From positions 1,601,432-1,665,431 of the forward strand of contig OY811972.1 of assembly GCA_963681505.1 (NCBI GenBank): DNA of 64,000 bases. Direction: 5' to 3'. Each line of letters opens with the position of its first letter. Within the stretch, counting starts at the first letter, position 1. This document shows positions 10,540 through 33,740 of the stretch, piece after piece. The translations under genes were made by a program, and so were the position numbers. A model generated the notes under the pieces. The model did no database searches. It had not been told where the DNA came from and worked only from the letters and a program-made list of their open reading frames with translations. Origin of the DNA: Eunapius fragilis (lineage: Eukaryota; Porifera; Demospongiae; Spongillida; Spongillidae).

Positions 10540-10966
10540 CAGTAGATCAAATGGTCTTCCGTTTCCCACCACCCTCCTCAAGGTCGACATAACATGTCAA
10601 CGTTCCTCTGGTTCTCTCAGACCTAACCTCGGTGAATGCTAATGTGGGCATGAATTCACCTTCCCATGATGGTCTAAGGCTGTCTGCATCATTATGTCAT
10701 TATGACATCCCTTCACCCCACAGAGGGTGTGGTCTTCAGTCGACCTGGGCAGTACTGTGCTGGGGCAGAGTGGGTGGAGCTTATGTATCGAATTTTCACT
10801 GACTACACAGGGTGAGTTCCCTTACCACCATCCATTACCATTAATTTAATAATATAAATAAGAACGCTGGAGGTTGGGGCAGGGGAGTGATCTGAACCCC
10901 CTCAGCAATTTGCCTGGGGGGGTGGGCCTGAACCTCCAATATTCTACACCTATGATAACACATCAA

Positions 10967-11043
<77 letters not shown>

Positions 11044-12584
11044 CACCGCATCATTGGGAGATGGTGAGGGTTGGAGAAGGAAGTGGATAGGGGGTGAGCT
11101 AATAATCATGTTCACTTTTTGTTCATAGTGTGTTACTTTTTTGTCATCAGGTATAGTCCCCACACCTCTATCTGTGTCTAGAAGGCCATGCCCTTGTCCC
11201 CAATGGCAACTGCAACAGAGGACTCATTCTATTTCTCTAGTGTTCTTCATATCAATACTCTCAAAGGATCAACTTGGTACAATCAATATTCCAATACACC
11301 CCTGATCCCCTGGCTGTGCTGAGTGGTGTAGTGTTAGTCCTTACCACCTGTGGTGATCACATGTCACCATCCATTTCCTCTTACAGGGTAACAAAGATGG
11401 CTGTAGACCAGACCTATGTGCTAAATGGATCATCATGTAGATGTCCTCTTCCTGGGAACAAGTATGTGTGTGTACATGTGTGTACATGTGTGTGTATGCA
11501 CTAGTGAGCACTCATCACTCCCTAACAGACATTGGGTCAGTAGTGCTCAAGATGGCTATGGCCTTTAATGGGACTCTCTTCCCTGTGATTGCTGAAAACA
11601 TCAAGGTTAGTCTCATGTGGAATGTATCAGTAATGCTTTCCATTGGGGGTGTGGTGTCTTTCCATGGGGTGTGGGGTGTCTTTCCATTGCCATTGGGCTT
11701 GTAAATAAGTAGGAACATGCAATGGCTTGTGTAGACACATGTGGGTGCATAATGTGTGCATAGTAGTGGGGCACACTGTACAGTGGTGAGGACTGCTATG
11801 ACAGGAGTATGCTTAAAGCTAGAGCTAATGGTGGTAGGGGGACGCTCGAGTTTGGCAGATAAGGTAGCACCAATGCCCATGGCATGTATCCAGCTACGCT
11901 CAAAATTCGTTCAGTCTACTTTCAAGTGTTGTCACTCGGTTACTGTTTAACATTAACAAACCTGTAAGCGATAGCTATATGAATGTGATTTTGCCCGGTA
12001 ACGTTGGGTGGGGGGGGGAGAAGGTAATACCCACTGCTGTGTTGACATACTATCAGTGAGTGTACTTCTGTTCTGCATATATACCTATGGCTATGTTGGT
12101 GGCAGTGGTGACATAGCAAGATGCTTACGTTTGTACTCCCCACCACCACCACCACGCACCCCTATCCCCCAGCTTGGTGAGGATGTATCAAGTGTGCGTC
12201 AAATGGAGATAAGAAATCAAGTAAGTTCTGACCACACCCCTCAGTCATTTCAATATCACATTCCCCTACACTGTATGTTCCACCCCTCAGAGTGGAGTGA
12301 AGTACCTCTATGTGAACATTGACAGTGGCATCTACAGACTGCCATTGGTCAATACCTGGACTGCAGGCATGGTCAACTACACAGTGTGAGTATGTGTGTA
12401 CTCATCACTTCATGTTATGTGCAGTTTATCATGCAGTATGCTTGCAGAGCTTTGTTTTTGCATAGCGCCATGTACCCACACTTACACACATACTTAAATG
12501 ATCCCATTCTTCAGTGGCTGTGTGTGCTCCAGAGATCCCTACTGTGTGTGTGGAACAATGTTACCATCAGTGTGTGAAGTATGA
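10540..12584 (+). pseudogene. partial, frameshifted duplicate of Sema-PSI exons
   Basis: Eight blocks match exons 9, 10 and 12-16 of the downstream Sema-GPCR gene, in order: ~10,540-10,631 (LKVDITC), 10,724-10,811 (88 bp, same length as exon 10), 11,241-11,332, 11,387-11,461, 11,529-11,605 (77 bp, as exon 13), 12,173-12,220, 12,291-12,385 (GVKYLYVN) and 12,515-12,584 (RDPYC). Most splice sites survive. Two lesions are visible. In the exon-12 counterpart, VTKMAVDQT and DVLFLGT lie in different frames. In the PSI exon an extra TG shifts the conserved YCVW to YCVC and leads to TGA at 12,582. The exon-11 counterpart is missing around an expanded CA repeat. No GAIN or 7TM follows. It is best read as a decayed tandem duplicate, although a short secreted product cannot be ruled out. 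Confidence 0.72.
10968..11046. repeat. (CA)n microsatellite
   Basis: A run of about 38 CA dinucleotides, with one CG step near the end. It sits where the counterpart of Sema exon 11 should be, between preserved blocks of the duplicate, and may mark the loss of that exon. Confidence 0.95.
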
Positions 12585-12849
12585 AGACCCCATGATATAA
12601 TCACGTCTCATCATAAACATCTCCCCACTGGCACCAGCATGGTATCATTATTAGATCAATTGTTTATCAGTATAAATCCATGTTTTGTATTCGCGTTGGG
12701 TTATGTTGAACGTGCGACAAGGTAAACTTGTGGAACGTCACGGGAATCAACCAGGAATGGACATTGATATCATCCTGGCTGTTTATATTTCATTGCGCAT
12801 GCGTCACCCTTAATAGCACGTGTACGTTCTCTGTTCGTGACCTTTAATG

Positions 12850-14679: not shown

Positions 14680-15581
14680 ATGCAAATGGATATCTTTAAC
14701 TTCTTTCTGCTGCCGCTGGCCTTACCCTTCGCATCTAGAGCTCAACCTCCTGTAGCGAGTCCTGTATTTACAGATGGCTACAGCCAGCCCATATCGGGTA
14801 AGCACCGTGTGTCGTTGTGCGTTGTGTTGTGCAGGGAGATAGGGAGGTAATGGAGGGAATGGGTGTCGACGGAGAAGGAGGAATTTGAAGTAGAAAGGAC
14901 GACAGTATGAGCCTAAATGGATTAGCTATATAGAAATCGCAAGTCAGCAATCACTGATCAAGCTTGATGTACTGACCGCGCTCACCATATTGAAACACAA
15001 CGCGCACCAGCATGTGTATATAATAGTAGTGATGTAGTGATCTAAATGAGGAGGATCTTGTGTTCAGAGCCGGCGCATTAACTGAACAGCCGATCAAGAT
15101 GATGTCATACGGTATACGATTTCGAGTGCATGTACATATCCTGTGCATATTCACAACTCATTTCTCTGTACATGTATGCCTGCTACAATACTGTACATGT
15201 ATGCCTGGACTACTGTACAGTACATGTAATGCCTGGACTACTGTACTTCGTTCTCCTTCCCTCAATGATACATCAACCGAGTTTCTTTAGTTGTGTGGGC
15301 CTATACCTACAACTAAGTGCGCCGCACAACTTCATGCATCTCTATAGGCTCACAGACAATGGGTGAATGAGGTGGGGAGCGTCCCATGTGGTGGTGATGA
15401 AACACGCACAACATGGATTCAGAAGTGCATGGCCCTAGCCTATGAACCAATATGGAATACTTTTCTGGTTCCAGGTCCGGTGAGAGCCGTACTGAGACCT
15501 GGGGTAACAGAGCGTTTGGGACAACTGTTTTGCCATAAAGTCCAAATCATATCTTGAGACCCGAGATAGATAACCACTCTT

Positions 15582-15614
<33 letters not shown>

Positions 15615-18600
15615 GTCTGGTTTCATGGGCCTGTCAATGATATGGCTGCTTGCTTGTAAAATGTACTGCCGGAAAGAATAATTCAAGCGTACATGTATTT
15701 GATTAAAATTAGGTGCCTTCTATAGTATAAAACTTATAGACCTTCTCCGTCACCCCCACCCCCCATACTCACCAATTTGCACTCAACCTGCTCCAATTCA
15801 AAAACACACCTGTTTTAACTTGAGATGGCAGCAATGAGAGGAATAGGATGAGACAGGAGAGGGGAGGAGGAAGAGAAGGGAGAGGGGATGAGGAAGTGAA
15901 GGAGAGAGGAACAGAAGGGAGAGTGAAAGAAGGGTAGGGAGAGGGGGAGAGGGGTATGGAGAGGGGAAGAGGGGTAGGGAGAGGGGAAGAGGGGTAGGGA
16001 GAGGGGAAGAGGGGTAGGGAGAGGGGAAGAGGGGTAGGGAGAGGGGAAGAAGGGTAGGGAGAGGGGAAGAGGGGTAGGGAGAGGGGAAGAGGGGTAGGGA
16101 GAGGGGAAGAGGGTAGGGAGAGGGGTAGAGGGGTAGGGAGAGAGGAAGAGGGGTAGGGAGAGGGGAAGAGGGGTAGGGAGAGGGGAAGAGGGGTAGGGAG
16201 AGGGGAAGAGGGGTAGGGAGAGGGGAAGAGGGGTAGGGAGAGGGGAAGAGGGGTAGGGAGAGGGGAAGAGGGGTAGGGAGAGGGGTAGAGGGGTAGGGAG
16301 GGGGGAAGAGGGGTTGGGAGTGGGGAAGAGGCGTAGGGAGAGGGGAAGAGCAGTATGGAGAGGAGAAGGGGTAGGAGAGGGGAAGAGGAGAAGGAAGGAG
16401 GAGAAGGGAGGAGGAGAATGGAAGAGAAGGTAGTCTTTTTATAGCAATGGAATGCCATATGATGGTATGAAGTTCTGCTTAATATCAGTGACTGACTTTA
16501 CATAATGCCAACCCTGCATAGCAACGTAATTGTAGCTATGTCATGTGTGGGTGTGTTTTCAACAGATTACATGTACCCCAAGTTCAATGGACTATCATCA
16601 CTAACATCAAAGCCATACTTCATCAGCAAGCTGAACTTTGACGCCATTCCTGGAATGATAGTTGTTGGAGCAGCGTATGTTAATGCAATGGGTCAATAAC
16701 TGTACATTGGATGTACATTGCATTAGATGCTCTTCTGGTATGGATCCTTTCCATGATACATAATTGCCATATTAACTAGTTGAAATAGCCATAAAAAGTA
16801 ATAGAGCTCAATTTTCATGCCAATAAGCTTAGAAAAACATCAGAAAACAGAGCATGCGAACCTTGCTGTAGGAATTTAAAGTTCATTGCCGAGCAGGGAT
16901 AATGGCGATTGCCATGGCAATTATCTGTCATGGAAATGGTCCATAAAAATACTGTGAAAATAAGGATTACACTAAGACTGCATGGACATGCATGTATCCA
17001 TACTGACAATACCATGTGACAAAGGTGAGACCAAGTCAACGATTCCTAATGTGTTCATTCAAACAGAGATTGGCTATATGTCCTAAATCAGGACCTGACT
17101 CTGGTAGGCAAATTGAACCTACCACCAACAGCCTCCATTGCAGAATGTTCAGCTGCTGTTGGATACAATCCAGTGAGGTCCATCATTATGTTGATCCAAA
17201 AAATCACACCTCTTTCCTCCCTCCTCCCCAGGACTACGTGTGCAAGAACCACATTCGTGTGTTCTCCTCCAGTCCCACTGACCCCACCAGACTGGTGGTG
17301 TGTGGGAGTGAGGCTGCTGGGACGCCATCTTGTAAGGGAGTTAGTGTAAGTTATTAACGATTCTGCTGAGTAACACCACCAGCATAACAGCTAGGGAGAA
17401 CCTATGACATCATTGAATACCACTTCATTCTCAAATTGCACAACACTAGCCTGTCCATATAATTAGAATGCATTCTACCATGTGGTCTGGTTGCCATGGA
17501 TCATGTATTGAGATTTCGAGTCTTTACTCATAAATAGAATAGCCCACATGTAAATTGAACTATTGATTAGTCAATAAAAGTGTAACAAACGCTCGCAACC
17601 CGTTGGCACTGACAGCTAGTGACACACTCTAATAATAAGCACCCCAAATACAAATCACTGGTCCCTATTTATAGTGACATTACAGACAACATTAATGGAC
17701 AGACAGTCTGCACATCCCATGACCAGAGTTCAGAGGTTGCTGACATGCGCAGTGACAGACTATTACACCACTCCCTCTTCCAGAAGGTCAGTATCTATCG
17801 GGTGGTCTTCGTATTCGTTGGGGATATCTGTGCTGTACTTCTGCAGGTTGATCAGCATGGGCAGCCTCAACTTCGGCAGGTTCTTCGTGTGGTAATAACT
17901 CCCGAGGTTCCTGCTCCTCTATTCCATCAAGGACTTCTATGTTGCTTCCAACTGGTGCAAACTCCAAAGGTGCCTCATTTTCGTCTGGATTTTCCGGTGG
18001 TGGTCCCTGGAATGTCTCAGTTCTTGTACCTGGTACAAATGGCTTAAGACGATCAAAGTGCACCACTCTAATCATTTTTCCATTCTTGCTTTTAATCTTA
18101 TAGTCACATTCCCCAATGCACTCAACCACTTTAAAGGGCCCAGTCCAGGGGTGATGCAATTTCCTACATTGACCCCGGGGCACAGCTGGTGAATGTAGCC
18201 ATACCCAGTCACCTACTTGATACGGAGCACCATGTACTTTGACATCGTACAAAGCCTTTTGTCGGTTGTGCTCAGTAATACCCTTTTTTCGAGCCAACAC
18301 ATACGCCTCTATGAGATTGTTCCGCAACGTATATGCATAATCACCCAAGGTGCAGGCTTCGTGTGGGGTTGAGCCATACATCAGGTCAACTGGTAAGTTT
18401 ACTTGACGACCATACATCAAATAAAAGGGGGAGTACCCTGTGGATGCATGAACACTCGAATTGTATGCTAAACACACCCTCCGTATACACTGGTCCCAAT
18501 CCATCTTATGATCCTTAACCACTGTAGATAGCATGTCTAACAATGTTCTATTGAACCTCTCTACTAACCCATTACAATGAGGATGGTAGGCCGTTGTACG

Positions 18601-21600
18601 GGTTTTGTGTATCTGGAGCAGGGTGCAGACTTCCTTCAACAAATCTGCCTCAAATTGCCTTCCTTGGTCAGAGTGCAACTGCTCAGGGGGAGAAAAGCGA
18701 CAAAACATTTCATCCACCAACGTTTTGGCCACAGTTACTGCCTCCTGGTTCTGAATGGCATAAACCTCAACCCACCTAGTAAAACAATCACATGCTACCA
18801 GTACATACTTATTGCCTTGAGCTGTCACCGGAAGGGGGCCAAGTATGTCCACTGCTACAATCTGTAAAGGGTATCCAGCCTGCAGGGTCTGAAGGGGTGC
18901 CCTTTTACTAGGTGGTGCCATTTTCCTTGTGCTGCATGTTCTGCATTTCCTACACCACTCCTTCACACTCTCTTTCCAGCCGGGCCAGTAGTATCGCTCG
19001 CGAACCAGATGTATCATCTTACTTTCACCTACATGGCCCCCCATGGAGCCACTGTGGAGGTCCTGCAGCACACTTTCTCTAAGCACAGAAGGCAACACTA
19101 GCTGCAGGTGTTGAGATCGCCCATCAATACACAATCGCCACAAGACGCTATTGTCTACTTTCAGGGATGACCACATCTGCACAAGTTGACGACTCTCCCG
19201 ACTCCATGTTTTTACTTCATCCAGGTTAGGAGTAGCACCACTTTCCTTTGCCTTCAGTACCGGACCAATTGACGGATCATTGAGCTGCTGGTCATGAACA
19301 TCAGCTGCAGAATGGCCTTGAGAGACAATGCCAATTTGAGCAGCGAGATGGGCAGGACTGTACACATGTGTAACTCTACCACATTGATTACATGGTACCC
19401 TGGATAAGGCATCTGCATTCTTGTGCTGGTTACCAGGTCTGTGGACCACTGTAAATGTGTACTCCTGTAGCCGCTCAAGCCAGCGAGCTAGCTGCCCCTC
19501 TGGTTCTTTGAAGTTTTGGATCCACACCAAGGAACCATGGTCTGTTCGGAGAGTAAAGTGAACACCTAAAAGGTAGTGTCGAAAATGGTGAATGAACTCA
19601 ACAACTGCTAGTAACTCGCGGCGAGTAACACAATATCTTTGCTCTTGCCAACTCAGAGATCTACTTGCATAGGCTATTACAACCTCACCCCCATCATCCT
19701 GTACTTGGGACAAAATTGCACCAATACCCATATCACTTGCATCAGTGTCCAACACGAAGTGCCTAGAGTGATCAGGAAAAGCAAGTATTGGGGTTGTCAT
19801 TAAACACTTACGCAAGTGATCAAAAGCAGCCTGACACTGCTGGGTCCACTCAAATGCGATGTTCTTTTCCAGCAGTCGCTGCAATGGTTTTGCTGTAGTT
19901 CCAAAATCCTTAATAAATCTTCTGTAATAGTTAGCGAGCCCCAGGAACTGTTGGATATTCTTCTTACTCTCAGGAACAGGCCACGTTGCAATTACTGCAG
20001 TCTTTTCAGGATCAGTTGCAATACCATTTTCAGAAATGACATGCCCTAAGAAGCGTACTTCTTTTTGACACAACTTGCACTTTGCTGGTTGCAGTTTAAG
20101 GCCTGCCTGTCTTAGTCGAGACAAAACAGTACCCAGATTGGATAAGTGTTGTTCAAAGGTCCGGCCTATCACCACAGTATCGTCAATATATACCAAACAT
20201 TCAACCCAGTTCACATCACATAAAACCCGATTCATCAATCTTTGAAATGTGGCAGGCGCATTACAGAGCCCAAAAGGCATTACTTTAAACTCGTATAGAC
20301 CTTCTGATGTGGTGAATGCTGTTTTCTCCCTACTGCTGCTATCTACTTCAACCTGCCAGTACCCACTTTTAAGATCTAAGGTGCTGAACCACTTAGAACC
20401 CCCTAATGTATCCAAAATGTCATCCACCCGAGGAAGTGGGTAGGCGTCCTTTCTAGTCACAGAATTAACTTTTCTGTAATCTATACAGAATCGTGTGGAT
20501 CCATCCCTTTTACGTACCAATATAATAGGTGATGACCATGGACTGTTAGAAGGTTGTATGATGTCATTTTTCAGCATCTCATTTAGAAGCTGTCTCACTT
20601 CCTGGCGGCGGGCTGGGGAGATACGACGGGGCAGTTGATGGATGGGTTGAGAGTCACCTGTGTCAATGTGATGTTTTGTGAGGTCTGTGCGTCCCAAATC
20701 AGAGTGAAAACTAAACACATCAGCATATTCCATAAGTAACACAAACAGCAATTCCTTCTCTGAATTACTGAGATGAGTACTATTGGAAACAATGTCCCAC
20801 AATACCTTGTGCTCACTTGGAGATACCTCAGTGACTGCTGATATTGTTAAGAGGTGAGCATCGCTGGTAATGGGTGGGTCTTTGTCCAAAGGTTCCATCT
20901 GTGCGATTTTCAAACCTTTCCCCAGTCTCACTGCTTCCTTATGTGGGTTGAATACACGAAGGGGGACAGTAGATCCTGTTGGACAGACCACAGCACGGGC
21001 CACCAGAACATCACAGCGTCCTGTCTGACCCCTCTCAACTAACCACGTGCCTACTACAGGAGTGTCCCCTACCCCACCTGATGATACCTCTACCATGACT
21101 TCTGCCTCACTTTCTGCTGGGATGGTTAGTTTCCTTTGTAATACCAAACCCACAGTTTTGCTCACTTTCTGGTTCACATCTAACAGTGGGAGAACTAGTT
21201 TCTCCTTTGGAAAGCTGATTTTCCTTTCCCCACTATCTATCATGCATTTGAATGTTTCCAAAAAGTCCAGCCCTAATATTGCCTCGACGGTCATTCCCTC
21301 CACAACAAGAAACTTGTTTTCAAACACCACGTTTTTAGACAATGACAGGTGGACCAACACAATGCCCTGTACATGCAGAGGTGATCCATTCACACCAACC
21401 AGCCTATTGCAACCACCCCATTCTTTCAGCTCCATGTGTTTATTAGCTGATACCCTGTGCCAAATATCTGTACTAAGGAGTGAAACAGACGCCCCGGTAT
21501 CTACTACGAACTGAACTGGGATTGATGCTATGTATCCTTTCAAACGGTAACTTATTTCGGAAGCAATGGACAATGCTGGGACTGTTAATTCTGGGGCCCA

Positions 21601-24600
21601 CTTGGCCCCCTCTCGTGCTTGGCCCTTTGCACGGAGGGGAGGAAGTTTTCCTGCTGTTCGGGTTGCTTAGAAGTTGCACATTCGCGAGCAACATGCCCTT
21701 TCCCCCCACAGTTCCAACAAATTATAGAATCCCGCTTACGTGCATTCCATTTCTTTGGTTCAGATTTTTTGCCTCCTGCTTTAGAGGTCACAAGTCCTTC
21801 CAAGCGGTCCAACCGTTCAACGAGTTCTTTTATCGCGTCCCGAGCGGGATCCGTCTTAGTCTGCACGGAAGCAATGCTAGAAGCGGTGCCGTCATCCTCG
21901 TCGGTAGTTGCTGGCGCTGTGTTCTGTGACATGGGCAAAAACCCCACCGTCATAGGCTTACAAGGATGAAGGTACGACTCCAGCTCCGTAGCCGCCAGCG
22001 CTGCTTCATCAACCGTCTGTGGTCGTTTCTGTTTAACGCCGAAGGCAACCTGTGGGTTGTCTAATTGGGAAAGAAACTGGTTTAAAGCCAAACACTCTCG
22101 CGCCTTCTCCTCCAACTCAGGGTAAGCGCTATCGGCTAGCAACCGTAGCGCATCACCAAATGATGCCCAATCTTCGCCTTTCTCTTTCTTTCTGTGCTGT
22201 AGTTCAACCATCTTAAGCGTTCGCTTGCTATCTGGATCAAAGCGGCGTTTCAATGCACATATACACTTACTGTAATCTGTTCGCTCATCCTCTCCCAGCC
22301 TCCGAAAAGCCGTCTGAGCCTTACCAACCAGGCGCACGCGTATCCATTTCAATCTATCTTCATCCTTAGTCCAGTTGTTCACGTCCGCACAGCTTTCGAA
22401 ATGGTTTATCCATTCGTCCCATTTCGTCCCAGACTCTCCGCTGAAAGTTTCCGGCAGTAGGAATGGCTTGTTTGCCATCCTGCCGACTACGCCAGTGTAA
22501 CAAACGCTCGCAACCCGTTGGCACTGACAGCTAGTGACACACTCTAATAATAAGCACCCCAAATACAAATCACTGGTCCCTATTTATAGTGACATTACAG
22601 ACAACATTAATGGACAGACAGTCTGCACATCCCATGACCAGAGTTCAGAGGTTGCTGACATGCGCAGTGACAGACTATTACAAAAGGATCCTCTCATCCC
22701 CCCATGGCCTACATATGCGCGCGAAGGTGGCAACTGTTTTGTTTACTAGCCACACCCCTTCCCCATGTGTCATCTTGTACACATAGATCATTGTAAACAC
22801 ACAGTATACTGCTTATATCTCACCACTCATGTTGGCTTGTTTGTTTGAATTAAACAAACAGATATATGTAAGTACACTCTTATGCCATGTACATGCACAC
22901 ATACTGCAACATACACTGCACACATAGACACTTATTATATTTTAACATGCATGTGCATGAACAAGTTTCTGTGGTGTGTAAGTTAAATCCAATGAAACGT
23001 TGACTTTGTTCTTTTACTGATGGGTTCAGGTATCCAACTTGACCAGCTTCACAACTGTAACAGCAGCAACAAGTGGTATGGTTTCTGTCAGTCCTGCCTT
23101 TTATGGAAGTGGAATTGCCTATAATGGTATGATGTATGTATGAATGTGCATGCATGCGTGTGTGCGTGCGTGCGTGATGAATATTAACTTTGTACGTGAC
23201 TGTACTACTTCTGTTTCCTTTCTCTCCAGTGACTAACCCAAGGGCTATCAACTTCTTTGCTGTCGCTATTCTCAATTTGAATGCCTCTGATGCTGGTCTA
23301 TTCTTCCTCACTGTCAACTACACAAATCCTACAGACCCTAACTCACTCAAAACAGTACTGCAGCTGCGTACAAACAGCATTGCCAATTTCAAATGTATGT
23401 TTAATGACTATCATATGTTGGTCTGACCCAATGATGTCCCTTCCAGCCCCTGCGTTTGTGGACACCTATAAGGCCAACTATGCTCCCAGGACTGCTAGGC
23501 TGCCTGGTATCTCTGATCCCATCACTCCTGATGAACACAAGTACTTCTTTGTCTTCGTGCAAGATATTGGCCCCACAAATGTGAGTTCTGATCCATTGCA
23601 TGCCATGTACACTGCACTAAGTGTCAGATAGACAATTGGACTAAACTAATTAAATCTCACAGGCCATCATAAGTCAAGTTGTCCGTGTCTGTCAGGTCAG
23701 TAAGCCTTATCTGAGGGACTTGAGAGGCTGTAATTAGACTGCTTCTTACCTCTTACTGCAGAATGATCCAGGGAGCAGTACTGACAATGCCCCACTCACC
23801 TTGGTGAAGGCACGTATTGACTGCAAGAGTGCCATACATTCGACCTCATACAATGCCATTAGTAAGTTCACATTGAAAGAAAATTGCCTACAAACCAATC
23901 TGAATATACATGTACTATTCTTAATAAATGGTAGTTAATTCACTAATAGAGTTTTGGTAACAATTCTACAATATGGGACGAATCATGACAAAGTCGATCA
24001 TCATAACTTACAAGTGAATCAATTTGATAATTGACTAACGATCCAATGTTGCCAAAGAACTTCTTGAAATTAATGTGTAAGAGTACCAAATGCAGTTCTT
24101 TCATGATGGTGCATATCTTTATGATTGCATTCATGATGTAACTAACCTGGCTGTTAGCCAATTTCTCATTTTTTACTGTTACCTTTAATTTGAGCTAGTG
24201 TCTCGTATTGTAGTGATCCTTGAAATTGAATAGAGATTATATTAAAACATTAATGTACTAAATGTTCATTCAATGGTTTCAAGGTTACTGATATAGAGAA
24301 AAATTTTGAGATGATTACTGTATTTTACAATTTGTAAATGTCATGCATATAAGGAGGATACAAGGAGGACTGTGGAAGATGTAAGGAGGATTTGAGGAGG
24401 ATGTAAGGAGGATGTGAAGAGGATGTAAGGAGGATTTGAGGAGGATGTAAGGAGGATGTGAAGAGGATGTAAGGAGGATTTGAGGAGGATGTAAGGAGGA
24501 TGTGAAGAGGATGTGAGGAGGATGTGATGAGGATATGAAGAGGATGTGAGGAGGATGTAAGTGTATGATGATGTGAGGATGTGAGGATGTAAGGAGTATG

Positions 24601-27600
24601 TGAGGATATGAGGAGGGATGTGAGGAGAATACAAGGATATGAGGAGAATATGAGGAGAATACAAGGATATGAGGAGAATAAAAGGAGGATGTGAGGAGGA
24701 TGTGATGTGAGGAGGATGTGAGGAGTTAATGAGAATATGTGGAGGATGTGAGAAGGATGCGAGAAGGTTGTGAGGAAGATGTGGGAGGATGGGAGGATGT
24801 GAGGATGAGGATGTGAAGAGGATGTGAAGAGGATGGGAGGATGTGAGGATGAGGATGTGAAGAGGATATGTGTAGGATATGTTTAGGATGAGGACATGAG
24901 GATATAAGAAGAATGTGAGGATATAGGGAGGATGTGAGGAGGATATGAGAAGGATGTGAGGAGGATATGAGAAGGATGTGAGGAGGATATGAGGAGGATT
25001 TGAGGAGGATGTGAGGATGGGAAGATATGAGGAGGATGTGAGGATATGAGAAGGATGATGAGGATATGAGGAAGATGTGAGTAGGATATGAGGATATGAG
25101 GAAGATGTGAGTAGGATATGAGGACATGAGGGGACAGGAGACTTGAGGAGGATGTGAGGATACAAGGAGGATGTGAGGAGGATGGGAGGATGTGAGGAGG
25201 ATGGGAGGATGTGAGGAGAATGGGAGGATGTGAGGAGGATATAAGGAGGATGTGAGGAGGATGTGAGGATATGAGGATATAAGGAGGATGTGAGGATATG
25301 AGGATGGGAGGAGGATATAAGCAGGATGTGAAAAGGATTTAGGGATGTGAGGAAGATGTTAGGAGGATGTGAGGAGACAAGGGGGAAAGGTGGTGTGAGG
25401 GTGGTGGGTAGGTGAGGAGTGATGAGGGTGGTGGTGGGAAGGTGAGTGTTTGGGTGGCGAGAAGGTGAAGTGAGGTGAATTATAATTTTGTTATTTTAAG
25501 CTAAGCGCAGACACCTCATTTCACCCCAAATGAAAGCCACATCACTGGTGCCAACATTGAGCTCATCCCTACTGCTGCATCCTGATAATGCATGATAGCA
25601 TAATCTGTTGATGAAGGTCACAATTAGATTTGCAATTTGATCAGATGAATTTCCTCAGGCTCTGAGGAATGCAATATTGGCATATCGTGGTACCATGGCT
25701 GTGTGTCTAGGGGTATGTGTGTGTGCGTCTGCATCGGAGGTATTTGTTATGTTATGGTGTAGCGCCAACACACACACACACCTCATTATGTACCTGCACA
25801 CATCATAGCAATGATTCTATACCATCATGATGTCGCACACCCACACCTATCCATATAACAAGAGGATATAAGGAGGATGTGAGGATATAAGGAGGAGTGA
25901 GGATGGGAGGATGTGAGGATGGGAGGATGGGAGGATGTGAGGATATAAGGAGGATGTGAGGATGGGAGGATGTGATGATATCAGGAGGATGTGAGGATAT
26001 AGGGATGATGTGAGGATGGGAGGGTGTGAGGATATAAGGAGGATATGAGGATGGGAGGATGTGAGGATGGGAGGATGTGAGATATAAGGAGGATGTGAGG
26101 ATGGGAGGATGTGAGGAGGATAAAATGAGGATGTAGGAGAACCAGAAATGTTGACAGTATTTTTTGTTATTGATGTATGAATGTTCAAACATGCTTTTTT
26201 CGATGGTGACAAAGGAGAAAAGGGGGTGGGAGAGTGAAATGTATGCTACTTTATGGTTGAGACAGAGCTGACTGTAGCTATCAGTCTGCACAAGCTCTGT
26301 TGGGATATATGCTACGACAACTGAATTATGCGGTGGTAACCAACTCATTCAATATCTCACAATAACCACAGCAAATGTCTTCGAGTATCTCTTTATCATT
26401 GTCCTTTATTATTAGTTGGTTTCATTTGTGAATTCATACTCATGTTTTTTTGAGTTACATTAGATAAACGATAAAGATTTTTAAGCATGACAAATTGACA
26501 ATCAGGCAAAGATAGTGGGCAACCCTGCTCCATTGTCCGTACCAATTGCACTCTTCCATTTGGTGCAAGAGCCCCTCAGAAATAGATATCCCAACCCCCC
26601 TTCCCTCGCCAACGCATGCATTTATACATTGCCTTCTACTAATGCTCCAAAATACTAATTGTTCCTTGGGGCGGCAATGCCTACAGGTCTGGGGCTCTCA
26701 CTATTCGTACTAGAACATTAGCTGCAGCTATTCTTCTTTTACAATTGAATCACTGTGTTAGGTGCATATTGTGCACACGTGCTGCTGCTCTATGGACTTT
26801 AGAACATCTTAGAAGAGTGGGCTTCTGTGCTCATTTGTTAACTTTTCTGAGAGCCTTAACTTAGTTTTAATAAAGGTATCATCATGTTGAAATTACCCCT
26901 CATCAGGTGGTGCAGCGTTCAACCAGATGGGACGTTATTATCAGAATGGAGATTGGGCACTGTTCATGTATGGAGCCTTCACTACCAGTGTAGGGTAAGT
27001 GTGCACTTGCTTGGATACATCATATGAGTGTGGCTGTCTTCACCACAGGGGTGATGATATATCAGCTGTGTGTGTCTACCCAGCTAACAACAGTGTGAAT
27101 GACATGACTGATGCCAATGGGAGGAATGGTGGTGTTTTTGACATCTTCAGGACTCTACTGCAGAATCCTAACACTGGCGTACAGACTACCACTGGTTATG
27201 TGGAGGTGGGCATTAATTAGGATTGCACTGATTGTGTGTAATGCAGTTATTAGAACATTGGAATTATAATTATGTGCACCAGAGTTACATGAGCTTAGGT
27301 ATTGGACCACTGATCGCATGCATACTGTTCATGGCTGAACCCCTGATGACACTATTCATGGCTGGACCCCTGATCATACCGTTCATGGCTGGATCCCTGA
27401 TCACACAATTCATGGCTGGACCACTGATCACATGCACACTGTTCATGGCAGGACCCCTGATTACACTGTTCATGGCTGAACCCCTGATCACACTGTTCAT
27501 GGCAGGACCCCTGATCACACTATTCATGGCTGGACCCCTGATCACACTGTTCATGGCTGGACCCCTGATCACAATATTCATGGCTGGACCCCTTATCACA

Positions 27601-30600
27601 CTGTTCATGGCTGGACAACTGATCACATGCACACTGCTCATGGCTGCATGCAACCTCGATGTCTTTAGCACCAGCAGAATGATTGAGAAGCATGCACGAT
27701 TTTATTGCATTGATTTTTTGGCTTATTTGGCTCCATACATATCACATCACTCACCTCTACACGAGAAGGGCCTGTTCACAGGACATGGATGTTGATATGG
27801 GGGTGGAGCTTGATGCTGGTGCTTTTGCTGATGTCATAGTCTGGCTATGGTGTATGCATAATTGTCACAAATGATGGTCACATTTAAAATCCCTAATAAA
27901 AGATGTTTGCACTGTGTTGTTGCTTAGAACATGCATGTAACTGGCGATGCTTGTGAATCTGCTGCTGTATTTATCTTTCTAATTAGTGCACACCTGGTGG
28001 AAATGCAGCAAGACCAGACTACACCTACACAGACACTGTCAATACCATCACCCAGATTGGTTCTGAACCACTGACGGTGATCAGTGGTGTTAGTGTCACC
28101 AAGATTGTACTGGACCAGACCTGTGTGGTCACAAACAACATGACTACCAGAACCTGTGTGATGCAAGATGTGCTCTTTTTGGGAACAGGTGTGTTTGGTG
28201 ACGCTGAGCGTGAGAAGTGTCTTTATCTCAGCGTATTGATGTCATAGCACATGACTGCATGCGATAGTCACATGGTCCCACACACATACTAGTAACGTTA
28301 CACTGAAGGGACCACGCATGTACCAGTAATGTGTACACTGAAGGGACCACTCATGTACCAGTAATGTGTACACTGAAGGGATCACACATGTACCAGTAAT
28401 GTGTACACTGAAGGGACCACACATGTACCAGTAATGTGTACACAGAAGGGACCCCACATGTACCAGTAATGTGTGAAGGACCATTGTTTTTTTTTTGAAA
28501 TCCCTGTAGGCACAGGTACAGTGCTGAAGGTTGCCATTGGTTACCTCAATGGAAATGCATTCTCCATCATATCAGAGGAGATCATGGTAACCACACCCAT
28601 CTGTGAAACCAATCACACAATATTTCCATTTGCACAGCTGAGTGACTTGTACCGGGTGAGGCAACTGGAGCTGGTGGTAGAGGTATGGACAATGGTGATG
28701 TCAACGTCATATGTTGATGTCATTATACTGGTGATGTCACCATGTGGTGATGTCATCATCCCACCTGCCACTCTTCATCTCCAGGGAGGAGTGAAGTACC
28801 TCTATGTGAACACAGACACCTCCATCTACAGACTACCACTTCAGAGGTGTACTAGATACCTCAGCTGCAGGTGAGAGGTGGAGGGGTTGTGAAGAGTGAG
28901 GACAAAGGCAGGTGAGAGGTGGTAGAGGAGTATGGCTCCACTACCACAGGCAGCACTCCAATCTAATGCTTCTAGCCACACCCTATAACCACATCTTTCT
29001 AACCACACCCACCCCATCTACCCACACCCCTCTAATCACACCCATCTAACCACATCCCTCTGGCCACACCCTCTAAATACACTCTTCTTTCCACTCTAAA
29101 ACACAGTACCTGTGTGGCTTCCAGAGACCCATACTGTGTGTGGAACTCTTCTCTGTCCCAGTGTGTGGTGTCTTCTATAGTACCCACCATGTCCAATAGT
29201 TCAGCATCAGTACCCAATGGGTGAGTTTGTACAAAGTAACTTACCACACTGAGCTAACTGTTCCATCACATGATCAGTATCTACCAGAACATCCATACAG
29301 GAGTTGATAACAGCTGCCCAGGTAACGTACATTCAGTCTCTACTGGTTATGCATTATGACCTTACATCACAAACATCTCTTCCTGTTCAGTACTGTTTTG
29401 GTTCATTTTAGTATATTAGAATTGATACAATTTTTTTTTGTTTCATCCTTTCTACTAGCCTCCACAACATCGAGTCCTACCACACCTGGAACGACATCTG
29501 GAACACCTGGGACAACACAACCTGGGACAACACAACCCGGGACAGTATGTACGTCCGCGTAACAGCACCACCGCACAAAAGTACATAGCAACGCGTACTT
29601 AGTGACAAAACATTGCTTTGCATGTAATTGTCCCAACACATTGCAACATGGCTGCAGTGTACATGGGGGAAGTAATTTCTTTTTTACAAAGTACATGCAT
29701 CCATTTTAAATCAATGGGACATGGAGAACTTAGTTCCTTTTGCAGTAGTTATGAGCAGCTTGCAGTGCAAAAAGGCAGTCACCTTTAGACATGAATTATA
29801 ATATGCATAGACAATAGCTCGCAATGTGACGGACAGATCTGGACAGATGATGCTTCTATATGTCCTACAGTGGTGACAGAGCAGTTCAAGGAGCTCAGCT
29901 CATTCATAACAAATGTGAGGGTTTTCAAGGTCATGTGTAAAACTTACAATCTAAACCTCCATCAGCAATCCATCAGTGCAGAAAATGTGGTATACATTGC
30001 ATCACAGTTACAAGCTGTTGTGTCTCAAGCTACAGGGGTGGGGGACCAAAGTGCTCCAAACCTGGCCATTGTGACAAATGTGATCACACAAATTGCCAAC
30101 ATATCATTACCAACAACTGCACCTGTGCAGCTTGAGGTACAAGATGAAGGAGCCATTGTTTTTTTGATGCACATTCACATTTTATATCTCATCAGACCAT
30201 CATCAATATTGTCAGTATCCTAAGCAGTATACAATATTGGCCACCAATGGTACTCGAAAAAAGTGGTTCAATGTAATGGCACATGTTAGAACTTTTTGCC
30301 ATTTTAAACCGATGTTCATTCCCAGAATTGTTAAGGCATTTGAAAACATTGCTTCAAGCCTAGTTGAGCAAGAAAATTTCACATCCTTTGTCTCTACAGA
30401 AAACCAAACAACATTAGTAGCTCAAAAGGTTTGCCTCTGATGAAGTGTGTTTACAAAGTAACTCTGCCTATCAGATTCCTCTAGCTAACCTTTCTACTGA
30501 AGGAATCAGATTTAACTATTCAGCACAAGATGTTGGAAATAGCAGCCTAAAAACAGCAAGCACTTCCAGCATCAATACTGCTCCAGCATATGCTGCATCT

Positions 30601-32393
30601 GTTTTCTTACCATCATCATTGTTCAAATCTATAAATAGCACTAACGTTGGGATAATTTTCACCATCTATAACAGAGCATCATTGTTCCCACTAGCTAATT
30701 CATCAAACAACAGCAAGATAGCATCTCTTGTTCTTGGCGCTACAATTGTGGCCTCATTCGCAAACCTTTCAATCCCAATTCCGTTTTTGTTCACCATTCC
30801 TAGCAAGGTAAGATTATTGTAAAAATGTGTTGAAGCAGTTATAATCTCTGCATTCAGAATTATTCAAGATATGACTGCGTCAGTTGGAACTTTAGTGCAG
30901 CAGGTACTGTGAGAGATGGGAGAGAGTTGGTAACTATAGGTGCATGGTGGAGGGCGGGTACCGACAATAAATTAGTTCTGTGTGCATGTACTATAACTGT
31001 AATTGGATTTTTATTTTTAAAAAGAAAATATGCAGCTGTTTGTTAGGACTCCACATACTACATTTACCATCAGGAGGAACAGGTAACTGGACTACTGAGG
31101 GATGTATCACCAACGTGAGCAATATTTCAAGTAGCCAAATCCAAATACAGTGTCAATGCTCTCACCTGACAAACTTTGCCATCCTAGTGGTGAGGGTTGT
31201 GCAGTTGTATACATCACTCTTACTTTGATCATTGCAGGACATATCAAGCAGAATCAGACCTGAACCTCCAAGTAAGCCTGTTCAACGAGCATTGGAAGCC
31301 ATCACCTTTGTTGGAGTGTCGTTGTCTCTTCTTGGACTGGTTATAACTATTTTGAGCCTAGCACTAATAAAGTAGGCTATTAGTACAGCTGAATTATTAA
31401 ACGTTGCTTGATCTTTATTGTGGACACCTCAAAATTGCTCAGGAAACAGAGAGAGAAGGATGTATCCAAGTACCACATTCAACTGTGCTGTGCCTTCATT
31501 GGTATGCTGCTGGTGTTTGTGATTGGAATTGACAGGACAGAGAACTATGGTGGCTGCGTGTCTGTGTCTGTGTTGATCCACTACTTCACCCTGGTGGCCA
31601 TGATGTGGATGGGGGCAGAGGCCTTGCTGATGTTCCAGAAGCTTGTCCTTGTTTTTTTCCAAACCACCACACGATACATTGTGGTTCTGTCTTTCATCTG
31701 TTGGGGTACGCTTTGCATGGTATGCCATTTTAGTACGTATTATTTTACTCCTTCAGTGACACCATTGGTTCCGGTGACTATTCCACTGGCCATGGATCGA
31801 AATCTGATTGTCAAACATGACACACCTTATGAATAGTGAGCCAACTGCATGCTTGTGCACACACGTCTCATTCCAGTTGTATTTCTCATATTCCTTATAG
31901 TTGCTTCATTAGTAATATTGCAGTATTCTTTGCCGCATTCTTGGGACCAATTTGTCTTGTTCTGGCCTTCAATGCAGTCATATTTGTTGTCGTGATTATA
32001 GTGCTAATTAAGCACGTGCTGAAACGATCAAACAGCAACAACAAAAATCATGATTCCATTCAACTGATGATAAACATCACTAGCATATTTGTCCTGTTTG
32101 GCCTTACATGGATCTTTGGGGCACTGACAGTCCTGAAAGCTGATCAGACTTTTCAGATTATGTTTACATTGATCAACTCGCTCCAAGGTTTCTTGATATT
32201 CATTTTCTTCTGTGCAATGAACAAGGACGTTCGACTTGAGTGGTTTCAACTTGTTGTATCTTGCCACAAAAAATGCTCTTTATCATCACAGGCTCATGAA
32301 ACAACTTTACAAAAAGCTGATACTGACGAATCTGCCTTCACTAATAAAAGCCAACTTTATGGCCATGAACTCGCACATTCAAAGGTAGTGTGA
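14680..32393 (+). CDS. semaphorin-domain adhesion G-protein-coupled receptor (Sema-PSI-GAIN-7TM)
   Basis: Twenty-nine exons join in one frame of about 1245 residues: 14680-14797, 16566-16674, 17067-17172, 17232-17345, 23030-23126, 23230-23394, 23447-23580, 23663-23695, 23762-23861, 26907-26994, 27049-27205, 27987-28188, 28510-28586, 28638-28682, 28785-28870, 29107-29220, 29278-29321, 29459-29548, 29871-29914, 29966-30136, 30196-30272, 30326-30428, 30475-30807, 30858-30903, 31074-31189, 31238-31371, 31443-31705, 31757-31835, 31901-32393. Order: signal peptide (1-22), Sema (about 45-530), PSI (533-575), Thr/Pro stalk (597-626), GAIN (630-925) with GPS cleavage motif HLTNF, then 7TM. It should act at the plasma membrane, with cleavage at HL/T exposing a TNFAIL tethered agonist. 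Start 14,680 is preferred over 14,641 because a signal peptide begins there. The exon-18 donor (29,548 rather than 29,544) was chosen by phase. A gypsy element lies in intron 4. A candidate AATAAA lies at 32,667-32,672. Confidence 0.85.
15583..15612. repeat. poly-C tract
   Basis: A pure C run of about 29 bp in intron 1 of the Sema-GPCR gene. It is one of many long G/C homopolymers in this window. Confidence 0.9.
15840..16430. repeat. purine-rich 20-bp minisatellite
   Basis: A strongly strand-asymmetric A/G tract in intron 1 of the Sema-GPCR gene. The core unit is GAGGGGAAGAGGGGTAGGGA, repeated about 20 times between roughly 15,945 and 16,370, with degenerate flanks. The minus-strand ORF of Ser/Pro/Leu repeats is a by-product. 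Such polypurine mirror tracts can form triplexes. Confidence 0.9.
17581..17767 (-). repeat. 3' LTR of the gypsy element
   Basis: 187 bp, from TGTAACAAACG to GACTATTACA on the plus strand. The ends form the short inverted repeat TGTAA/TTACA. No difference from the copy at 22,496-22,682 was seen. Confidence 0.92.
17788..21573 (-). CDS. pol: Pol polyprotein of the gypsy element (PR-RT-RH-IN)
   Basis: An uninterrupted frame of about 1260 codons. It has an aspartic protease with DTGAS (near residue 26), a reverse transcriptase with the catalytic YIDD box, and an RNase H with DTDASD. The integrase has an HHCC finger (GGHVGESK, then C-x2-C) and DDE residues in VDILGPLP, SDQGRQF and VERFNR. A C-terminal GPY/F-type module (WTGPFKVV) is present, with no chromodomain seen. 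The first in-track codon is TTG, so there is no pol ATG. The frame stays open upstream of 21,573 past the gag stop at 21,585, in the -1 phase, which suggests a Gag-Pol frameshift. Confidence 0.93.
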   Translation of the reverse strand: MSIASEISYRLKGYIASIPVQFVVDTGASVSLLSTDIWHRVSANKHMELKEWGGCNRLVGVNGSPLHVQGIVLVHLSLSKNVVFENKFLVVEGMTVEAILGLDFLETFKCMIDSGERKISFPKEKLVLPLLDVNQKVSKTVGLVLQRKLTIPAESEAEVMVEVSSGGVGDTPVVGTWLVERGQTGRCDVLVARAVVCPTGSTVPLRVFNPHKEAVRLGKGLKIAQMEPLDKDPPITSDAHLLTISAVTEVSPSEHKVLWDIVSNSTHLSNSEKELLFVLLMEYADVFSFHSDLGRTDLTKHHIDTGDSQPIHQLPRRISPARRQEVRQLLNEMLKNDIIQPSNSPWSSPIILVRKRDGSTRFCIDYRKVNSVTRKDAYPLPRVDDILDTLGGSKWFSTLDLKSGYWQVEVDSSSREKTAFTTSEGLYEFKVMPFGLCNAPATFQRLMNRVLCDVNWVECLVYIDDTVVIGRTFEQHLSNLGTVLSRLRQAGLKLQPAKCKLCQKEVRFLGHVISENGIATDPEKTAVIATWPVPESKKNIQQFLGLANYYRRFIKDFGTTAKPLQRLLEKNIAFEWTQQCQAAFDHLRKCLMTTPILAFPDHSRHFVLDTDASDMGIGAILSQVQDDGGEVVIAYASRSLSWQEQRYCVTRRELLAVVEFIHHFRHYLLGVHFTLRTDHGSLVWIQNFKEPEGQLARWLERLQEYTFTVVHRPGNQHKNADALSRVPCNQCGRVTHVYSPAHLAAQIGIVSQGHSAADVHDQQLNDPSIGPVLKAKESGATPNLDEVKTWSRESRQLVQMWSSLKVDNSVLWRLCIDGRSQHLQLVLPSVLRESVLQDLHSGSMGGHVGESKMIHLVRERYYWPGWKESVKEWCRKCRTCSTRKMAPPSKRAPLQTLQAGYPLQIVAVDILGPLPVTAQGNKYVLVACDCFTRWVEVYAIQNQEAVTVAKTLVDEMFCRFSPPEQLHSDQGRQFEADLLKEVCTLLQIHKTRTTAYHPHCNGLVERFNRTLLDMLSTVVKDHKMDWDQCIRRVCLAYNSSVHASTGYSPFYLMYGRQVNLPVDLMYGSTPHEACTLGDYAYTLRNNLIEAYVLARKKGITEHNRQKALYDVKVHGAPYQVGDWVWLHSPAVPRGQCRKLHHPWTGPFKVVECIGECDYKIKSKNGKMIRVVHFDRLKPFVPGTRTETFQGPPPENPDENEAPLEFAPVGSNIEVLDGIEEQEPRELLPHEEPAEVEAAHADQPAEVQHRYPQRIRRPPDRY
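21585..22478 (-). CDS. gag: Gag polyprotein of the gypsy element
   Basis: About 297 residues from the ATG at 22,478 (MANKPFLLPETFSG). The retrotransposon-Gag capsid region includes WDEWINHFESC and ALKRRFDP. A basic linker follows, then a single CCHC zinc knuckle, CWNCGGKGHVAREC, near the C-terminus, for RNA packaging. The reading frame extends further upstream into the LTR; the internal ATG was chosen because it lies outside the LTR. Pol follows in the -1 frame with overlap. Confidence 0.88.
   Translation of the reverse strand: MANKPFLLPETFSGESGTKWDEWINHFESCADVNNWTKDEDRLKWIRVRLVGKAQTAFRRLGEDERTDYSKCICALKRRFDPDSKRTLKMVELQHRKKEKGEDWASFGDALRLLADSAYPELEEKARECLALNQFLSQLDNPQVAFGVKQKRPQTVDEAALAATELESYLHPCKPMTVGFLPMSQNTAPATTDEDDGTASSIASVQTKTDPARDAIKELVERLDRLEGLVTSKAGGKKSEPKKWNARKRDSIICWNCGGKGHVARECATSKQPEQQENFLPSVQRAKHERGPSGPQN
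22477..22494 (-). promoter_or_regulatory. candidate tRNA primer-binding site
   Basis: On the minus strand, one base past the LTR, the sequence is TGGCGTAGTCGGCAGGAT, beginning TGG as expected for pairing to a tRNA CCA end. The priming tRNA was not assigned. The site overlaps the first bases of the gag ATG at 22,478, so the leader is almost absent. Confidence 0.55.
22496..22682 (-). repeat. 5' LTR of the gypsy element
   Basis: 187-bp partner of the LTR at 17,581-17,767. It is 5' in element orientation. The gag reading frame is open backwards into this LTR, but the first good ATG lies just outside it. Confidence 0.92.
24340..25480. repeat. GAGGATGTGAG degenerate minisatellite, block 1
   Basis: About 1.1 kb of irregular tandem words built from GAGGATGTGAG, GGAGGATATGAG and similar, in intron 9 of the Sema-GPCR gene. 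It gives long repetitive minus-strand frames of the HILLTSS type that have no domain character. Confidence 0.92.
25858..26135. repeat. GAGGATGTGAG minisatellite, block 2
   Basis: A second block of the same satellite as 24,340-25,480, separated by about 380 bp of non-repetitive DNA with a short CA run (25,769-25,785). It is in the same intron. Confidence 0.9.
27300..27650. repeat. 27-bp minisatellite, about 12 copies
   Basis: Units close to TTCATGGCTGGACCCCTGATC plus CACACTG are repeated in tandem in intron 11 of the Sema-GPCR gene. Both strands give open frames because the period is a multiple of three. No coding evidence was seen. Confidence 0.9.
28262..28476. repeat. 35-bp minisatellite, about 6 copies
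   Basis: Tandem units containing ACATGTACCAGTAATGTGTA and CACTGAAGGGACCAC, in intron 12 of the Sema-GPCR gene, ending about 35 bp before exon 13. Confidence 0.9.
28840..29220 (+). other. PSI domain of the receptor (exons 15-16)
   Basis: Directly after the Sema propeller the frame reads CTRYLSCSTCVASRDPYCVW, the classic PSI signature with the RDPYCxW core, spanning a phase-2 intron. PSI modules follow Sema domains in semaphorins, plexins and MET and help position the propeller. A Thr/Pro/Gly-rich stretch (TTPGTT repeats, 29,459-29,548) follows as a probable O-glycosylated stalk. Confidence 0.85.
29871..32393 (+). other. GAIN/GPS and adhesion-type 7TM portion (exons 19-29)
   Basis: The GAIN region includes ISAENVVYIASQL, TNVGIIFTIYNRASLFPL and VASFANLSIPI-type beta segments. 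The GPS has CVSWNFS, NWTTEGC and CQCSHLTNF, with all four expected Cys and both Trp. TM1 lies in exon 26. TM2-TM4 are in exon 27, including the pre-TM3 Cys and AEALLMFQKLV. TM6 has GLTWIFG and TM7 has LINSLQGFLIFIF, both hallmarks of adhesion GPCRs. The second-loop Cys is in YCFIS at the start of exon 29. The cytoplasmic tail is about 50 residues with no PDZ-type terminus that I recognise. Confidence 0.9.
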
Positions 32394-33740
32394 CAGTGAC
32401 ATAGTGGAGGAAACAGTGCAAGACTATACTGAGTTGAATATGTGTGCATGAGGTCGCTAAATTTCAAACAATGGCAAATAATTTTAAAGCTGTTACTAAT
32501 TATACGGATTACATTGCTCTTTTAGTGTATCAACAAAACTGGTTACATGTTGTCATGTGTGGTATGTCAGGCATGTGAATGCGAACGAGGCATGCTGCTC
32601 AGTACATTCTTTCAATTTTATTTAATACCAAATAGCTGGATACAATCTGCAGTAGATTTCAACATTAATAAACAAATAACACTGCCTGGGTATAGAAAGT
32701 CTTTGGAATAATGGATTGGGGACCAGACTTGTAATGATTGCCTGAGACCTCACTAATATGACATGCATGTTCTAACTCATGTGAGTAGGCTGCAAGCCCC
32801 ACAGCCGGATAGTGGAGCCATTGATATTTTCCAAGCTCAAAGGAAAGAGCATTGCTTTTTTCCATAGGAAATGGGCTGATGAGGACACGAAGGAAATAAA
32901 AAACGCTGGAGTTGCAAAGCTGGCTTATCGATTTACTTGCTGTAGGAAACTGCAGTCAAGCTGTTGAATGACACTGTCGTGATCAGCACAGTTACTTAGT
33001 CAGTTAGTTAGAACTGCAAATGTTGTGCCAGTTGGATTGTTGACAGTGGGTTTACTTGGATTAATGTAGTATGACTACCTGGTGCTAGCTTCAGATGGCA
33101 CAACATGATGGTGGAGTGGTTGTTTTGCTGCACAGCTTGAGAAGAGTTCTTGCCAAGATAATAGCGACATGTTGCAGCAATGAATAATTAATTAGTGGTC
33201 AAGTGGTTTAAATTTGCCCCCTACCCGTCGGAAAAATTCCACCGGAATTTCGGCGGCAGTTTCTAATTTCACAAAATGCAAGCATTTTCCAAATTATATA
33301 CACATCGCATACTACCGACAACGGTCAGTAAACTACATGGTGACCTAGTGGGTCTAGGGCAGTGTCAGGGCAAAAAGGGCAAGTGGAACCTCCTGAGGTG
33401 TCAAGACCCAGCCACATCTAAGGACAACCTGACACTCAGTATTGTCAAGGTGCTGGTCCAAACCAGTGGAAGGGACTACAAATATCCAAGAACCTGCATG
33501 AGGGGCAGAGACAGAAAGGATTTGAGCCTATTACTGTTAATGCACCTATCATTGTTACGTACCTGCCATCATCTGGGTTTAAATTATTTTGGACTTACGA
33601 TAGTAACGTTAGTGTTATAGCTGTATTTTAGTGGTGTTATGTGTAGTCAATAATAATATTATTATTTTTATTTATTTTTAAAGATTAAAGGCTTATAGAC
33701 ATGTATGTACACACAAACTACACAAAAGTCAGCAAATGCA
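32394..33740. other. 3' flank of the Sema-GPCR gene, no further gene seen
   Basis: Immediately after the TGA the sequence is non-coding. AATAAA at 32,667-32,672 is the best polyadenylation signal. The 114-codon frame at 33,276-33,620 has no recognisable domain, and I do not call it a gene. Confidence 0.5.

Follow-up and report, generated by a model that had tools for sequence, protein, structure and literature searches.

A semaphorin ectodomain in frame with an adhesion GPCR module in the sponge Eunapius fragilis: a probable young chimeric receptor gene

The window analyzed here is a stretch of 64,000 nucleotides from Eunapius fragilis (assembly GCA_963681505.1, contig OY811972.1, positions 1,601,432 to 1,665,431 of the forward strand); positions below count from its first letter. 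Between 14,680 and 32,393 on the plus strand, 28 exons with GT/AG borders join into a single open frame with one terminal stop (Table 1). The joined frame encodes, in order, a signal peptide (recognized by eye), a Sema domain, a PSI domain, a Thr/Pro stalk, a GAIN/GPS region with the HL/T motif, and a secretin-type 7TM domain. Exons 1 to 17 form the Sema half, including the post-PSI stretch GIYQNIHTGVDNSCP, and exons 18 to 28 encode GAIN, the GPS with CSHL/TNFAILV, the 7TM, and the tail. The model measures 1282 aa when exons 16, 17, and 18 are joined and 1252 aa when exon 16 is spliced directly to exon 18. The initial annotation had proposed one in-phase frame of 29 exons and about 1245 residues; the single frame stands, while both counts have to be replaced by those given here. 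Its exons, phases, and domains were found where it had placed them, and the GPS with its HLTNF motif is in frame.

Table 1. Features of the joined gene model and of its junction (window positions).
Feature	Position	Strand	Basis or remark
Exon 1: start codon and signal peptide (MQMDIFNFFLLPLALPFASRA-QPP)	14680..14797	+	Read by eye
Exons 2-5: Sema	16566-16674, 17067-17172, 17232-17345, 23030-23126	+	Pfam, Semaphorin-1A match
Exons 6-9: Sema	23230-23394, 23447-23580, 23663-23695, 23762-23861	+	Pfam, Semaphorin-1A match
Exons 10-13: Sema	26907-26994, 27049-27205, 27987-28188, 28510-28682	+	Pfam, Semaphorin-1A match
Exons 14-15: end of Sema, PSI	28785-28870, 29107-29220	+	Pfam PSI
Exon 16: post-PSI stretch GIYQNIHTGVDNSCP, ends in phase 1	29278..29321	+	
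In-frame ATG in intron 16, then hydrophobic stretch into exon 17	29356..29458	+	
TGA ending Sema if exon 16 is read through its donor	29357..29359	+	
Exon 17: Thr/Pro stalk, 90 bp, phase 1 to phase 1	29459..29548	+	Donor 29549; homologous to single-TM semaphorin stalk
Intron 17, 262 bp, contains the junction	29549..29810	+	
TAA ending a secreted Sema if exon 17 is not spliced onward	29560..29562	+	
Exons 18-20: GAIN region	29811-29914, 29966-30136, 30196-30272	+	
Exons 21-22: GAIN region	30326-30428, 30475-30807	+	Exons 18-22 hold a remnant of a hormone-receptor-like motif (by eye) and most of the GAIN region
Exons 23-24: GPS, CSHL/TNFAILV cleavage motif and tethered-agonist sequence	30858-30903, 31074-31189	+	Pfam GPS
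Exons 25-28: 7TM and tail, terminal stop	31238-31371, 31443-31705, 31757-31835, 31901-32393	+	Pfam 7tm_2
AATAAA downstream of the 7TM stop	32667..32672	+	

A Pfam search of the 1282-aa model confirmed the domain content predicted in the initial annotation, with four families above their curated cut-offs: 7tm_2 (PF00002; E 9.8e-36, 123.7 bits against a curated cut-off of 20.6), GPS (PF01825; E 4e-13), PSI (PF01437; E 1.8e-8), placed after Sema, and Sema itself (PF01403; E 2.6e-8, residues 340-502). At E 0.1 these were the only families matched, and neither an IPT, a RasGAP, nor a kinase domain was among them. Compared with solved structures, the Sema half matched best to Semaphorin-1A (6e-17), followed by Plexin-B1 (2.3e-9), and the Semaphorin-1A alignment extends through the post-PSI stretch, with GIYQNIHTGVDNSCP opposite YQNVATGQHAACP. 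The GAIN-7TM half matched best to ADGRG2 (1.7e-54) and ADGRG6 (9.9e-46), the sequence matches to the two chains covering residues 66-596 and 66-593 of this half, respectively. A six-frame search of the whole genome with PF01403 gave three matches, none of them at the 14,680-32,393 locus, indicating that single Sema exons are here too short or too diverged to be detected one by one; the corresponding PF00002 search detected two exons of the window gene. The secreted, single-TM, or GPI end typical of semaphorins is absent from the joined model, whose anchor is the 7TM.

Several other features share the window. Intron 4 holds a Ty3/gypsy-like retroelement (17581-22682, open frames on the minus strand) with two identical 187-bp LTRs and AAAG on both flanks, and because the LTRs are identical and the flanks match, it is read as a young insertion. 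Upstream of the gene, a decayed partial Sema copy occupies 10700-12640 on the plus strand, with pieces from Sema to PSI (best E 5.8e-5) and frames broken by eye. The minus strand carries an LGR-like receptor in a single frame at 42974-45748 (LRR_8, 3e-44; rhodopsin-type 7TM, 5.6e-17), a shorter frame similar to it at 40188-40622 with no Pfam match, and at 713-1879 a 388-codon frame resembling a multi-pass membrane protein, with no Pfam family at 0.01.

On the contig of the window (hereafter C2), the Sema half is accompanied by about 14 close copies. A DNA query with 29,100-29,860 returned 41 matches, with 40 of 96 candidates scored. Fifteen rows, grouped as 14 places at C2 0.885-1.356 Mb, match exon 15 and/or exon 16 at 85-98%, as does one place on C1. 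Only two of the 14 C2 places reach exon 17, one at 91% to 29544 (C2:1,246,644) and the other at 87% to 29505 (C2:1,274,008). Four further matches, on C1 and C3, are limited to the GAIN side from 29616 on, and the remainder consists of nineteen short dispersed-repeat matches near 29566-29609 and one weak C2 match. Apart from the window itself, no match spanned the junction among the 40 of 96 candidates scored. An exon-12 query yielded 17 matches (16 of 16 candidates scored), grouped as 15 copies including the window, all on C2, and exon 14 is 90-99% identical in the seven cluster loci read (L069-L075). Exon 1 together with about 120 bp upstream matches two places in the cluster at 83-85% identity; the one that was read (L078) is one base short in the exon relative to the window.

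What follows exon 16 varies among these copies. Ig-like exons come after it in five of the seven loci read (Pfam Ig_3 2.5e-10 in the one tested). In L069, a single exon homologous to window exon 17 encodes the stalk, a TM stretch, and a short tail; in L070, the stalk is present and the TM is lost into a minisatellite, with exon 2 of another copy behind it. Because it is homologous to the stalk part of the L069 stalk-and-TM exon, window exon 17 is, judged from this homology, the stalk of a single-pass semaphorin from which the TM is gone. In L001 and L003, two further semaphorins of this genome, a TM stretch behind the stalk can likewise be recognized by eye, the one in L003 following a phase-1 intron. 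No old Sema TM exon was seen by eye downstream of the 7TM in plus-strand frames of at least 40 aa between 32,391 and 36,600, and no 7TM lies in the C2 cluster among the PF00002 matches listed (150 of 178 candidates scored).

The paralog read across L069 and L076 is collinear with the window gene from exon 3 to exon 17, with AG before 14 of 15 exons and GT after 13 of 14, and its exon 17 runs on; exon 13 and the exon-14 acceptor are imperfect there, the match to exon 2 is partial, and a search for exon 1 found nothing. Against the L069 gene, the Sema half has a dN/dS of 0.52 (dS 0.145, 551 codons, p 4e-4), a rough value that covers exons 3-17 only, with one paralog stop dropped and exon 13 kept with its second half badly aligned. 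Altogether, C2:0.88-1.36 Mb (L069-L075, L076) holds about 14 semaphorin copies with differing ends after the same phase-1 intron, and the cluster, with its Ig-like, single-TM, and truncated ends, has the look of a recognition family in rapid change. Several introns of the Sema half are filled by tandem arrays (units of about 8-35 bp) at 15916-16388, 24350-25376, 25872-26117, and 27324-27627, and an array resembling that of intron 1 by eye lies at the broken end of L070. Such arrays may promote recombination in the cluster.

The GAIN-7TM half belongs to a different and large family, since a GAIN query gave at least 164 exon-level matches in the sponge's own genome (126 of 191 candidates scored) and PF00002 at least 157 (150 of 178). 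Its four closest relatives are three loci on C3 at 2.37-2.46 Mb (C3a, C3b, and C3c) and one on C1 at 8.72 Mb. They share with the window a segment of about 2.7 kb, at roughly 83-89% DNA identity, that starts at 29616-29621 inside intron 17 and runs to 32350; the C1 copy is without 31,407-31,756. In the closest copies, the exon-18 acceptor reads attcatctacag/ACAATAGC (ending in tatag in C3a); its AG and its phase match those of window 29811. This clear same-phase acceptor suggests that exon 18 is internal by descent. All 11 acceptors and all 10 donors of the GAIN-7TM half are kept in C3a and C3b, so its splice borders are not a product of chance. A retrogene origin was discarded, as the introns were duplicated along with the exons.

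In five more family members (L037, L039, L042, L043, and L062), coding-looking sequence continues upstream of the exon-18 point into a hormone-receptor-like motif recognized by eye, a 44-residue piece of which (from L042) matched no Pfam family. The four closest copies show no upstream Sema match within 7.3-7.5 kb (tblastn, E up to 1). They adjoin a gene with EGF-like repeats instead, which in the C3 copies has a signal-peptide-like start. One EGF piece hits hEGF and other EGF models of Pfam below the curated cut-offs; for the first 164 residues of the EGF-type protein at C3b, Pfam gave no match. The C3 loci thus resemble the window gene in their GAIN-7TM module, acceptor phase, and intronic start of homology, and differ from it in an ectodomain that is EGF-like by eye and below cut-off in Pfam. 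C3c differs further in an extra exon that reads as a TM and tail, inside about 1.8 kb unmatched in C3a, C3b, and C1, and in a broken GAIN-7TM with three stops in the window frame plus indels. C3a and C3b are stop-free. From these four loci, of which the one on C1 is damaged, we infer a second case of the module replacing a single-pass anchor.

The two histories meet in intron 17, where Sema homology ends at 29544 and that of the GAIN module starts at 29616-29621. Between the two lies a short dispersed repeat (about 29566-29609, with 19 other matches), a possible trace of the join. Exon 16 ends in phase 1 and exon 18 requires phase 1, so that the routes 16-17-18 and 16-18 are both in frame. Among the seven in-frame donor/acceptor pairs found across the joint, donor 29549 (TAT/GTACGT) with acceptor 29811 is the sole pair that combines a fair donor with an acceptor kept in the paralogs. 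This donor scores 4.9 bits and outscores nine of the 26 other donors of the gene. The acceptor outscores four of the 26 others with 2.9 bits, against 9.3 or 6.5 bits in the paralogs, relative to which the window is without about 10 nt of the pyrimidine-rich stretch preceding it. By these scores, the joint is less secure than the rest of the gene model.

Other splice choices were considered at the joint. A second donor 4 nt upstream of 29549, at 29545 (ACA/GTATGT, 4.4 bits), runs into a stop when paired with 29811. Acceptors 29818, 29837, and 29847 for the GAIN exon are in frame with some donors; they are weak and not kept in the paralogs. If exon 17 were skipped, or the GT 4 bases before its donor used, a stalkless receptor or a secreted Sema could result.

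Selection on the receptor half was assessed over 624 codons, in which the window GAIN-7TM has no stops and no frameshifts; of its four closest relatives, the C1 and C3c copies are broken. Relative to C3a, dN is 0.058 and dS 0.166, a ratio of 0.35 that is the same against C3b. With changes polarized by C3d, the window branch carries 37 synonymous and 47 nonsynonymous changes (84 in total) over 431 synonymous and 1441 nonsynonymous sites, a nonsynonymous deficit with p 1.7e-5. These values indicate purifying selection on an intact copy; since the join cannot be dated within the window branch, they support without proving constraint after it, and the signal may partly or wholly predate it.

In place of one joined gene, the locus could consist of two pieces, namely a secreted Sema ending at the TAA at 29560 (or, by read-through of exon 16, at the TGA at 29357) and an orphan GAIN-7TM copy that lacks a 5' part and is silent or decaying. 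Consistent with such a split, an in-frame stop follows 16 bp past the end of the Sema-paralog homology, the exon-18 acceptor is weakened, and the sister copies on C1 and C3c are already broken. However, the window copy is free of stops and frameshifts over 624 codons on a constrained branch, although that constraint may predate the join, and two in-frame splice routes lead into GAIN. Likewise, neither AATAAA nor ATTAAA occurs in the interval scanned from stalk to GAIN (29,222 to 30,965), leaving no such signal after either stop before 30966. We consider two separate pieces unlikely, though they form the main rival to a joined gene.

A separate short adhesion GPCR could instead start at the ATG at 29356, with its own promoter, a signal-peptide-like stretch, the stalk, GAIN, and the 7TM. 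The initial annotation had named a start ahead of the GAIN exons as a point against a joined gene, and a search of 28,871-29,810 left this ATG as the sole serious candidate. Its frame is open into exon 17 and sufficiently hydrophobic. Against it, exons 2, 14, and 24 have similar in-frame ATG and hydrophobic extensions, making four of 27 exons at a hydrophobicity mark of 2.1 that was chosen after exon 17 had been seen. Moreover, exon 17 is a semaphorin stalk by homology, and in both exon-17 paralogs read (L069 and L070) the frame holds no ATG before closing upstream, so the start is not conserved in them. An independent receptor of this kind is therefore improbable. Least probable of all is an assembly error that misplaced a GAIN-7TM copy beside a Sema copy. 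Both halves do belong to repetitive families of similar copies, and identity to cluster copies reaches 98% in exons 12, 15, and 16. Nevertheless, divergence separates the GAIN-7TM half from the nearest copies detected (dS 0.17 relative to C3a), exon 17 is just 87-91% like its two copies, and the halves stand 266 bp apart on one contig; we give this explanation very little weight.

We favor the reading that the gene is a young chimera, with an adhesion-GPCR module in place of a semaphorin membrane anchor, and that it encodes one joined receptor, an interpretation that the genomic sequence makes likely. The two halves share one frame and are both intact, the breakpoint is intronic, and paralogs of each half exist without the other; no polyA signal separates stalk from GAIN, and both splice routes keep the frame. 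Weighing against it are the weakened exon-18 acceptor, the mid-range exon-17 donor with a similar-scoring GT 4 nt upstream, and the presence of the junction at one locus among the 40 of 96 candidates scored. The claim that a Sema-PSI ectodomain lies in frame with a GAIN-7TM is thus borne out at the level of the genome, and the paralogs explain its origin.

If the gene arose in this way, a GAIN-7TM segment with part of its upstream intron would have landed just 3' of the stalk in a C2-cluster membrane semaphorin and replaced its single TM anchor. The Sema promoter and signal peptide would then drive one transcript and carry the protein to the surface, where the GAIN domain is predicted to self-cleave at HL/T. 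The Sema-PSI head would serve as the sensor, its most likely partner being a plexin or another Sema. Ligand binding or pulling could expose the tethered agonist TNFAILV and thereby activate a G protein. A semaphorin, normally a ligand or weak reverse signaler, would in this manner become a receptor, and this switch would be the new element.

Sema-PSI heads of the semaphorin family meet plexins or other Semas, and group G adhesion GPCRs are known to carry ectodomains other than Sema-PSI. The window gene resembles ADGRG2 and ADGRG6 in its GPS with HL/T, its TNFA-type tethered-agonist sequence, and its secretin-type 7TM, and differs from them in having Sema-PSI as ectodomain. Plexins and MET/RON are receptors on a Sema-PSI head (also in PMC6374515). 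Unlike these, the window protein has no IPT, RasGAP, or kinase Pfam match, its signaling part is a 7TM, and its Sema resembles semaphorins more closely than plexins (Semaphorin-1A 6e-17 versus Plexin-B1 2.3e-9). PMC6374515 describes the Sema domain as exclusive to plexins, semaphorins, and Met RTKs, and the Amphimedon semaphorins as transmembrane proteins with Sema and PSI, with or without FNIII. Like the single-pass semaphorins of early animals, among them Amphimedon Sema-1A to -1C, the window gene has a signal peptide, Sema, PSI, a post-PSI stretch, and a Thr-rich stalk; in contrast to them, it has no TM and tail, and the GAIN-7TM module follows the stalk.

The initial annotation knew of no described adhesion GPCR bearing a Sema domain, and this agrees with the literature searched (titles and starts of abstracts, with some full-text term searches; subscription papers and most preprints fall outside this scope), which contained none. 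The term GPCR occurs nowhere in the accessible part of PMC6374515, and "sema" is absent from the GPCR papers PMC12716839 and PMC4302439 and from the searched part of PMC13197933. In the parts available of PMC10572269 and PMC11119830, the adhesion GPCR Gpr97 is linked to Sema3A signaling in the kidney, the two being separate molecules.

More tentatively, and with less than even confidence, the locus may encode the first Sema-headed GPCR, in which plexin- or semaphorin-type recognition is wired to a self-cleaving, tethered-agonist 7TM through the swap of an end module. Exon shuffling at a phase-1 intron would then provide one kind of head with adhesive, single-pass, or G-protein outputs. If true, guidance-type recognition and G-protein signaling would be united in one molecule, an unusual adhesion GPCR whose ligand class, the plexins, could be guessed. 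It would also offer a near-frozen view of how an adhesion GPCR may gain a head, by an intron-level insertion that replaces a membrane anchor.
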